Origin: a virus
DNA: 28,296 bases
Virus record (IMG/VR): IMGVR_UViG_3300047564_000547
Coordinates: 1 to 28,296 of that record
Direction: 5' to 3' (one strand)
Made by a program: the position numbers and the translations under genes. Under the pieces are notes generated by a model. The model saw nothing but the letters and a program-made list of their open reading frames with translations, did no database searches and was not told where the DNA came from. Of this stretch, positions 5,999-16,955 are shown piece by piece; within the stretch, counting starts at the first letter, position 1, and each line of letters begins with the position of its first letter.

Positions 5999-7018
5999 TT
6001 ATCTTATTGCATGTGGAATAGACTCACCTTTTGCGAGGCTTGAAACTTCCACATACATACATTCTACACTAAGGTCTGACAATTTGTCAATCCCAGTGTA
6101 AGAAATGCCTGATTTAATACCATTTTTGAAGGTTTCTAGGGTATCTCTTACATTTCCCTTGTATGGAATTGTGGTAGATACTCCTTCAACTACTGATACA
6201 TTACCTCGTGAACGCTGTGCATCTGCACTAGCCATTCCACGAAATTCTTTACTAATTGGATTACCATTTGAATCGTAATGGGTCTCTCCTGGAGACTGCT
6301 TATGACCTGCTAGTAGTGAGCCCAACATAACTGCATGAGCCCCCGCAGCAAATGCCTTTACAGCATCGCCCGAATTCTTAATACCACCGTCAGCAATAAT
6401 TGCTGCATCCCCATCTTGCCACTTATCTGCAATATCCATAATAGAAGCAAGGGTAGGAATACCATGCCCAGTAACAATACGAGTTGTACAAGCAGAACCA
6501 CCACCAATGCCAACGCGGATTGAATCTGCACCAGCATCACTCAGACGCTTGAATCCATCCCAAGTTGAAACATTGCCAGCCATAATATGCACACCAAGAG
6601 ATGATAGATTTTTTACAGCCTTAATTGCATTTTCATTATGACCATTTGCTGTATCTACAATTAAACCAACTGCACCATTATCAACAAGCCTTTCTGCGTG
6701 TTCAAGATATTTACCCGTAGCACCAACAGCAAAAAATGCAGCATAGTGTCCAAGTGTTGCTAGTATTTCTAATTGTTCTTTCTCAGACATGTATCTGTGG
6801 ATAGAGCCTACTGCGCCTAGGTCTGCTAGTGTTGCAGCCATTTCTTCTCCACACACCGTATCCATCGGTGCTGCAATGATTGGAAATGATAGACCAATCT
6901 TATGCTTCTTACCAAATACCATAGTTAGGTCAATGTCGTGACGACTACTTACATTAGAGTGCTGTGGCACAAGCAAGATGTCATCAAAGGACAAAGCCTT
7001 ATCAATATACTTCTTCAT
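5999..7018 (-). CDS. IMP dehydrogenase / GMP reductase-family enzyme
   Basis: This 339-aa TIM-barrel protein lacks the CBS pair of cellular GuaB. Visible motifs are the N-terminal SFDDILLVP (10-18), a VDTANGH loop (121-127), GIGGGSACTTR with the nucleophile Cys at 177, the ADGGIK phosphate site (209-214) and IPYKG (284-288). IMPDH makes XMP from IMP with NAD, whereas GMP reductase runs GMP to IMP with NADPH. The Arg-Tyr pair of the IMPDH flap is not evident, so the direction cannot be decided. It follows a glycosyltransferase and a methyltransferase with minimal gaps, which hints at guanine-nucleotide supply for replication or sugar donors. Confidence 0.85.
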   Translation of the reverse strand: MKKYIDKALSFDDILLVPQHSNVSSRHDIDLTMVFGKKHKIGLSFPIIAAPMDTVCGEEMAATLADLGAVGSIHRYMSEKEQLEILATLGHYAAFFAVGATGKYLEHAERLVDNGAVGLIVDTANGHNENAIKAVKNLSSLGVHIMAGNVSTWDGFKRLSDAGADSIRVGIGGGSACTTRIVTGHGIPTLASIMDIADKWQDGDAAIIADGGIKNSGDAVKAFAAGAHAVMLGSLLAGHKQSPGETHYDSNGNPISKEFRGMASADAQRSRGNVSVVEGVSTTIPYKGNVRDTLETFKNGIKSGISYTGIDKLSDLSVECMYVEVSSLAKGESIPHAIR

Positions 7019-16346: not shown

Positions 16347-16355
16347 ATTTTATCA
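16347..16355 (-). promoter_or_regulatory. extended -10 promoter TGA-TAAAAT
   Basis: TGA (16353-16355), the thioredoxin stop codon, directly precedes TAAAAT (16347-16352), forming an extended -10. The next gene starts exactly six bases later. No good -35 is seen 17 bases upstream. Confidence 0.5.
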
Positions 16356-16637
16356 CAAGTCTAGGTCTTTTGCGAGAGCATACTTGGGCTTTGCGCCAAT
16401 TACCTGCTTCAAAATCTCGCCATTTTCTACTACCATAATGACTGGAATAGATGTAATTCCAAACTCAGTGGCTAGTTCTTGGTTTTCGTCAACATTGACC
16501 TTAATTAGTTTAACTCCAGCCTCATCTGAGAGCTCTTGTAAAACTGGACCAACCATCTTACATGGACCACACCACTCAGCCCAGAAATCTACAATTGCCT
16601 TGCCTTCGATTCCATTCAGGAATTCTTGCTTACTCAT
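16353..16637 (-). CDS. trxA: thioredoxin
   Basis: The 94-aa protein has the redox motif WCGPC (residues 22-26), the preceding FWAEW strand and the cis-proline loop TSIPVIMV. It is slightly shorter than bacterial TrxA (about 105 aa), mainly at the ends. Phage thioredoxins reduce ribonucleotide reductase or assist replication; no reductase gene is visible in this window, so the partner is unknown. A strong TAGGAGG lies before the ATG. It is the last gene of the transcript that carries tRNA-Thr, -Asn and -Leu. Confidence 0.92.
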   Translation of the reverse strand: MSKQEFLNGIEGKAIVDFWAEWCGPCKMVGPVLQELSDEAGVKLIKVNVDENQELATEFGITSIPVIMVVENGEILKQVIGAKPKYALAKDLDL

Positions 16638-16658
16638 AATAACCTCCTATGTTATTTG

Positions 16659-16738
<80 letters not shown>

Positions 16739-16742
16739 AAGT

Positions 16743-16882
16743 GAAAGGGTAGACTGCAAAATATCCAACTGCACTAAATAGCGTAACGGATTCAGCCTTT
16801 TACGCTGTCGCAGACCAAGACTCTGCGAATGTCGGGATATCGGAATAAGTAACTACACCATCCTAAGATTGTCTACCCTTTC
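16743..16882 (-). ncRNA. candidate structured RNA between two tRNA genes
   Basis: The 140 bases between tRNA-Asn and tRNA-Leu have no ORF but are closed by a perfect 12-bp stem (16743-16754 with 16871-16882, GAAAGGGTAGAC / GTCTACCCTTTC). Inside are a possible 6-bp stem (16761-16766 / 16835-16840) and two adjacent perfect 7-bp hairpins. One is AGCGTAA/TTACGCT at 16780-16806 with a 13-base loop. The other is TCGCAGA/TCTGCGA at 16808-16828 with a 7-base loop. The ends lie one and four bases from the tRNAs, so tRNA maturation would free it. It does not resemble tmRNA, SRP RNA, 6S or a hammerhead. It may be a new small RNA, a decayed tRNA pair or a maturation element. Confidence 0.55.
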
Positions 16883-16883
16883 G

Positions 16884-16955
16884 CTGGAATGATAGGACTC
16901 GAACCTATAACCCGCCGATTAACAGTCGGCTGCTCTGCCATTGAGCTACACTCCA
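16884..16955 (-). tRNA. tRNA-Asn (GTT)
   Basis: Acceptor TGGAGTG pairs with CATTCCA, the anticodon stem GCCGA/TCGGC encloses CTGTTAA (anticodon GTT), and the T arm is ATAGGTTCGAGTCCTAT. CCA is not encoded. Confidence 0.92.

Follow-up and report, generated by a model that had tools for sequence, protein, structure and literature searches.

A structured RNA family of actinobacterial viruses with predicted pairing to helix 69 and neighbouring segments of host 23S rRNA

The spacer between two tRNA genes of an actinobacterial virus carries a member of an RNA family that we propose to be a phage-encoded, trans-acting small RNA, which would base-pair with domain IV of host 23S rRNA and interfere with subunit joining, a reading to which we assign a probability of roughly 0.6. 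The pairing with 23S rRNA is strongly supported by sequence, and from it we infer the effect on the ribosome. Comparative evidence indicates that the family is a discrete structured RNA, read from the strand antisense to 23S rRNA, and that it is virus-only, its carrier here being an actinobacterial virus.

The window (the whole virus record analysed, 28,296 bases long) was found with ARAGORN to hold tRNA-Asn, tRNA-Leu, and nine further tRNAs, all on the minus strand, on which its main genes also lie. Both tRNAs flanking the spacer are on this strand, and the RNA is therefore a minus-strand product. Read from 16882 to 16743, the spacer lies 0 nt from tRNA-Asn and 4 nt from tRNA-Leu. The extent of the whole RNA is based on the flush tRNAs, the fold z-score, and syntenic homologues in four contigs (L002, L003, L083, and L084). 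Its features are as follows:

16739..16882, minus strand: entire RNA expected after tRNA processing, ~140-144 nt, with its 5' end at 16882 and its 3' end at 16739-16743
16883..16955, minus strand: tRNA-Asn(GTT), from ARAGORN; its 3' end abuts the 5' end of the RNA
16658..16738, minus strand: tRNA-Leu(TAG), from ARAGORN; an RNase P cut at its 5' end would set the 3' end of the RNA
16871..16882, minus strand: 5' arm of the closing stem P1, GAAAGGGUAGAC, 12 bp, from fold and covariation
16743..16754, minus strand: 3' arm of P1, GUCUACCCUUUC, 12 bp, from fold and covariation
16849..16867, minus strand: antisense core, CUUAGGAUGGUGUAGUUAC, complement of 23S rRNA 1920-1929 plus 1910-1916 (E. coli numbering) in the actinobacterial form
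16764..16829, minus strand: second antisense arm, UUCGCAGAGUCU...GUUACGCUAUUUAGUGCAGUUGGA, antisense to 23S rRNA 1956-2014
16808..16828, minus strand: 7-bp hairpin UCGCAGA-GUCUUGG-UCUGCGA within the second arm, from sequence and fold
16780..16806, minus strand: 7-bp hairpin AGCGUAA...UUACGCU within the second arm, from sequence and fold
16760-16766 with 16835-16841: 6-7-bp stem, AATATCC with GGATATC

All of the structural elements named in the first-pass annotation (a perfect 12-bp stem, two 7-bp hairpins, and a 6-bp stem) are present in the sequence; in plus-strand letters, P1 is GAAAGGGTAGAC at 16743-16754, pairing perfectly with GTCTACCCTTTC at 16871-16882. The minus strand folds to -49.6 kcal/mol compared with -32.5 +/- 3.5 kcal/mol for 200 dinucleotide shuffles (z = -4.87), none of which was as low. 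By a rough calculation, a perfect 12-bp stem spanning at most 150 nt is expected about 0.25 times by chance in 28 kb and is not very rare, so the proof that the stem is real has to be comparative. Immediately 3' of tRNA-Leu is a thioredoxin-domain gene (16353-16637, minus strand), and a thioredoxin gene is likewise found directly 3' of the RNA in L002 and L083/L084. Elsewhere in the window, a 339-aa protein (5999-7018, minus strand) matches PHROG 9582 (dehydrogenase), apparently the product of a nucleotide-metabolism type gene.

Close relatives were retrieved through the thioredoxin and terminase of the window, and the spacer is kept in them, following tRNA-Asn in L083/L084 and L002 and lying between tRNA-Gly and tRNA-Asn in L003. 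The closing stem of L083/L084 (GAGGGTGGCGGAT/ATCCGTCACCCTC) is wholly unlike that of the window in sequence and still paired, and a 21-mer common to these two contigs is also present in L087 with the order of parts changed. Searches of IMG/VR for the exact core, CUUAGGAUGGNNUAGUUAC (17-19 nt), which select for core invariance, returned 153 stretches, 62 of them from a scan with the exact 18-mer and 91 added by CTTAGGATGGNHTAGTTAC; three contigs found by the thioredoxin rather than the core search (L040, L061, and L062) have a core with AT in the middle. Nearly all cores are enclosed by a closing stem of 12-15 bp, the exceptions being truncations at contig edges and two or three stemless chance matches. 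Two arrangements were found, type A (P1 - core - interior - P1', ~75-150 nt) and its circular permutation, type B (P1 - interior - core - P1', 79-103 nt).

Compensatory change, to which the first-pass annotation had looked in all four stems, is massive in P1 and supports its interpretation of a structured RNA with no ORF. Standard pairs make up 98.8% of the outer 11 positions in 66 distinct P1 stems of type A, with four to six pair types at each, compared with a mean of 46% and a maximum of 55% when partners were re-dealt in 500 runs; the 98.8% is flattered by the choice of P1 as the best stem, a choice made equally in the swap control of stem scores (own partners 32.2 +/- 2.4, swapped 18.7 +/- 4.8, shuffled 16.6), and the sequences are related and hence not independent. 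The 6-bp stem and hairpin 2 (16780-16806) vary little among the four closest relatives, and hairpin 1 (16808-16828) is rebuilt as a different hairpin in L002/L003. L084 and L002 additionally contain a second candidate spacer RNA of ~190-200 nt between tRNA-Thr and tRNA-Asn (L084:14548-14746, L002:5574-5764), which is well conserved and has several apparent hairpins; no match antisense to rRNA was obtained for it, and in the window this interval measures just 41 nt. Genes for tmRNA, with tags such as GVTQNALALAA, were found in related actinophage contigs (L002:4259-4517, L006:2760-3008, L010:1981-2234, and L031:3016-3269), and ARAGORN detected none in the window.

The RNA had been said to match no known family, which was borne out by cmscan with Rfam 15 (tmRNA, 6S, SRP, GOLLD, ROOL, ribozymes, and riboswitches): no match was obtained on the window region at E-values up to 5, and 11 family loci searched at E-values up to 1 yielded tRNA and chance matches only. 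The YrlA model gave one sub-threshold overlap, on the tRNA array of L118, and none on the element, and the TROVE/Ro protein (PF05731) was found in 0 of 50 contigs, with a control match in Deinobacterium, so that an identity as a Ro-associated Y RNA was rejected. A CsrA sponge was likewise rejected (the motif AGGAUG is single copy and hosts are actinobacterial), as was a tRNA-like D-arm (GGUGUAGUUAC...), which is true of one subfamily only; a self-cleaving ribozyme, prompted by the circular permutations, was set aside as improbable once the core had been recognised as complementary to 23S rRNA. The core 19-mer is absent from 84,980 GTDB genomes, in which a degenerate core pattern gave two matches, both without a stem, and blastn of family members against cultured phages gave chance words only. 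The terminase of the window is nearest to those of Streptomyces phages (60-62% identity), among them Gilson (Stanwilliamsviridae), the nearest cultured lineage by terminase, in which no element is recognisable. Among the many contigs whose thioredoxin is ~60% identical to that of the window, most are absent from the core matches, and this wider group can therefore do without the RNA.

Release by tRNA processing without a promoter of its own, as first suggested, fits part of the family. The 34 elements that begin within ~2 nt of the 3' end of an upstream tRNA have a TATAAT-like box in just two cases (last 18 nt), whereas 57 of the 66 elements without an upstream tRNA have a -10 box, a median of 6 nt before P1, compared with 20 of 66 in the reverse-strand control. 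Because the two routes, tRNA end and -10 box, yield the same 5' end, they speak for a discrete RNA, and they also set its strand.

The reverse complement of the core, GUAACUA-NN-CCAUCCUAAG, corresponds to 23S rRNA 1910-1929 in E. coli numbering, for which an annotated 23S copy of 2,898 nt was used with an offset of +6, in agreement with the known positions of m5U1939 and m5C1962. The target thus comprises the helix 69 loop and 3' strand, plus the strand after it, in the CCAUCC form, and two nucleotides of the RNA always stand opposite three rRNA nucleotides, 1917-1919. Over a 72-nt stretch with the CCAUCC form, Tsukamurella, Streptomyces, Actinomyces, and Nonomuraea show 100% identity, as does a single 2.4-kb record bearing the label Acinetobacter. 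The E. coli form is CGGUCC, and identity does not exceed 97.2% for proteobacterial records, save for a 1.4-kb record labelled Pseudomonas (98.6%). The core duplex is calculated at -26.6 kcal/mol with actinobacterial rRNA versus -23.2 kcal/mol with that of E. coli.

A second region of complementarity was found in the remainder of the RNA. With P1 and the core removed, the best of 427 rRNA windows for the window interior was 23S 1956-2014 in all four actinobacterial species, which together with E. coli made up the references. Its score of 34 was reached by none of 500 shuffles (14.1 +/- 2.1) and fell to 19 against E. coli 23S. The same result was obtained for L083, L178, L091, and others, and the best or tied best window lay at the predicted place for 40 of 85 distinct interiors, and for 26 of the 40 that are at least 50 nt long, compared with 2.3% by chance; E. 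coli 23S scored below the best actinobacterium in 10 of 10 interiors tested. The second arm was undetectable in several members (L095, L153, L163, and L196). When 7-mers of the Streptomyces rrn region were scanned after masking of the core, GCACGAA (1964-1970) ranked first, being found in 21 of 88 elements versus 0.6 expected, and complements of other rRNA 7-mers off the predicted site occurred in up to 13 of 88, in related RNAs; as such off-site words are frequent, short words alone are no proof of a target. A 23S-like match of 26-33 nt in L187, L151, and L231 turned out to be Hsp20-like coding sequence, hence chance; in all three, no more than a few hundred bases separate that gene from the short-form RNA.

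Type B, as in L091, runs collinear with the antisense, type A being its permuted form, and in both cases rRNA 1930-1955 would loop out at the position of P1 or a linker. With a 150-nt piece of 23S, unaided binding is predicted at -39.6 kcal/mol for L091, -14.2 for the window RNA, -1.7 for L040, and 0.0 for L101. Cofolding of the window RNA favours the target, given that 60 other pieces, of which some possibly overlap it, averaged -1.6 kcal/mol and went no lower than -11.6. The weak or nil cofolding of some short forms implies that opening of the free structure may need helpers or co-transcriptional timing.

Complementarity also tracks variation in the target. If the core is matched to the rRNA of the host, phages of hosts with CGGUCC are predicted to carry CTTAGGACCGNNTAGTTAC; ten such stretches were found, and among 11 other two-base combinations searched, only TC, which is wobble-compatible, occurred in the same scaffold as the CCG core. 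This scaffold, for which no Rfam match was found, is unrelated to the first: a short covarying stem (ACACC/GGTGT, ACTCAC/GTGAGT) presents the core in its loop, and the complement reaches 13 + 9 nt, a single nucleotide being absent between the two parts, opposite U1917. In L274 both arms are kept and the middle differs, and L253 is an exception, with the CCG core in another context. A match to WhiB, a marker of actinobacteria, was found in 37 of 40 ATGG-core contigs versus 0 of 10 CCG-core contigs, groups of unequal contig size in which several of the CCG contigs are short. The polymerase of L248 is nearest to those of Sinorhizobium, Agrobacterium, and Cronobacter jumbo phages. For the freshwater contigs, Nanopelagicales are a probable host type. 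The ATGG core goes with WhiB-bearing contigs, the CCG/TCG core with relatives of proteobacterial phages, and the fit is poorer with E. coli rRNA. The CCG/TCG scaffold (L246, L247, L248, L251, L266, L270, L274, and L275) further contains a conserved hairpin loop, GGCUGCUG, complementary to 16S rRNA 519-528 (530-loop region), and a conserved AGUGAGC, part in L266 of a longer, 11-nt stretch complementary to 23S ~1097-1107 (GTPase-associated centre); both are short words that may serve only as a lead.

The sequences show that P1 joins two arms, one complementary to 1910-1929 and the other antisense to 1956-2014, beyond helices 70-71. Followed round through P1, these arms stand in the antiparallel order that rRNA pairing requires, with 1930-1955 looping out opposite P1, a geometry that types A and B, as circular permutations, both keep. 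In the proposed mechanism, the RNA would be produced from the phage tRNA transcript or from its own promoter. The RNA would then invade helix 69 in the free or immature 50S subunit, 30S-50S joining through intersubunit bridge B2a may be blocked or delayed, and host translation could be held back or re-routed during infection. Interference at bridge B2a appears the likeliest effect because the most invariant contact is the helix 69 loop and 3' strand. Two toxins of M. tuberculosis, MazF-mt3 and MazF-mt6, cut helix/loop 70, MazF-mt6 acting on 50S and not on 70S, and the helix 70 region is required for 50S-30S association, which one mutation there can abolish (PMC5408214). Since the region is open to MazF-mt6 in 50S and closed in 70S, pairing is most plausible in the free or immature subunit. 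A block of all ribosomes would harm the phage too, so timing or partial action must be assumed.

The same target data would suit a shield or chaperone that pairs with helices 69-72 and guards them against host ribosome-cutting toxins, or guides assembly, leaving ribosomes usable by the phage. The hosts are actinobacterial, and MazF-type enzymes cut helix 70 at UUCCU; in M. tuberculosis, MazF-mt3 and MazF-mt6 cut helix/loop 70 (PMC5408214). We nevertheless consider this role unlikely, as the window RNA leaves 1930-1955, with the UUCCU site, unpaired, P1 replacing exactly that part, and as helix 69 rather than helix 70 is the most invariant contact. Slightly less likely still is a guide RNA whose duplexes flank unpaired 1917-1919 and direct or block modification there (Psi1917, Cm1920, etc.) by a host or phage enzyme. 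The constant two nucleotides opposite three, the unrelated CCG scaffold being likewise short by exactly one nucleotide, and the retention of both arms in L274 around a differing middle would all be consistent with guiding, but the bulged nucleotides in nearest-neighbour duplexes differ with NN, inspection by eye showed neither C/D nor H/ACA-like features, no protein partner was identified, and the arms of type A are not ordered like those of an H/ACA pocket.

Circular permutation around a short invariant core is typical of ribozymes and aptamers, and the core might bind a phage or host protein or ligand, or self-cleave, its rRNA complementarity being incidental. This we judge improbable: a 17-nt complement with a single gap is hard to obtain by chance, a second collinear arm extends over ~60 nt and fits actinobacterial better than E. 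coli rRNA, host-matched changes recur in an unrelated scaffold, and no Rfam ribozyme or riboswitch matched. That the opposite strand, which by definition holds 23S-like sequence, acts as a 23S-fragment mimic decoying ribosome factors is very improbable, given that tRNAs and -10 boxes fix the antisense strand and that the partner strands of helices 69 and 71 are not preserved.

Phage T4 encodes the species I and II RNAs (RNA C and D), stable RNAs of unknown function in its tRNA cluster that are processed from the phage tRNA transcript. The window RNA is of roughly their size, and its tRNA-spacer geometry would fit the same processing, whereas its family also has members with their own promoter and is antisense to 23S rRNA; we know of no sequence link between the two. 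Trans-acting phage sRNAs such as the c4 RNA of P1/P7, covered in a review whose main text does not mention rRNA (PMC12197685), are similarly structured and present complementary segments to another RNA, but the predicted target of the window family is host rRNA. Antisense-to-rRNA segments held by a terminal stem are shared with the box C/D and H/ACA guide RNAs of archaea and eukaryotes, which differ in arm order and size and of whose C/D or ACA motifs none was seen by eye here, the present family being found in bacterial viruses. MazF-mt3 and MazF-mt6 attack the same helix 69-71 region of 50S but are RNA-cleaving proteins, whereas the window RNA is predicted to pair. GOLLD, ROOL, and Y RNA (YrlA) are likewise structured phage RNAs beside tRNAs, and the window family differs in lacking both an Rfam match and, in the 50 contigs, a TROVE/Ro protein. 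We found no phage RNA targeting rRNA in the open-access literature, and to our knowledge none has been described.

More broadly, we regard it as an even bet that host-matched antisense RNAs have been acquired by actinobacterial viruses and, independently, by other phages, and that they invade functional centres of host rRNA (23S helix 69, to which the second scaffold may add the 16S 530 loop) and thereby control the ribosome through RNA alone. Our results also suggest screening unexplained phage RNAs in general for complementarity to conserved rRNA. Should the pairing prove real, the family would give phages a programmable handle on the ribosome, one that tracks the rRNA sequence of the host and recurs in two or more unrelated scaffolds, and would point to a precise site of host takeover at helix 69 and intersubunit bridge B2a.
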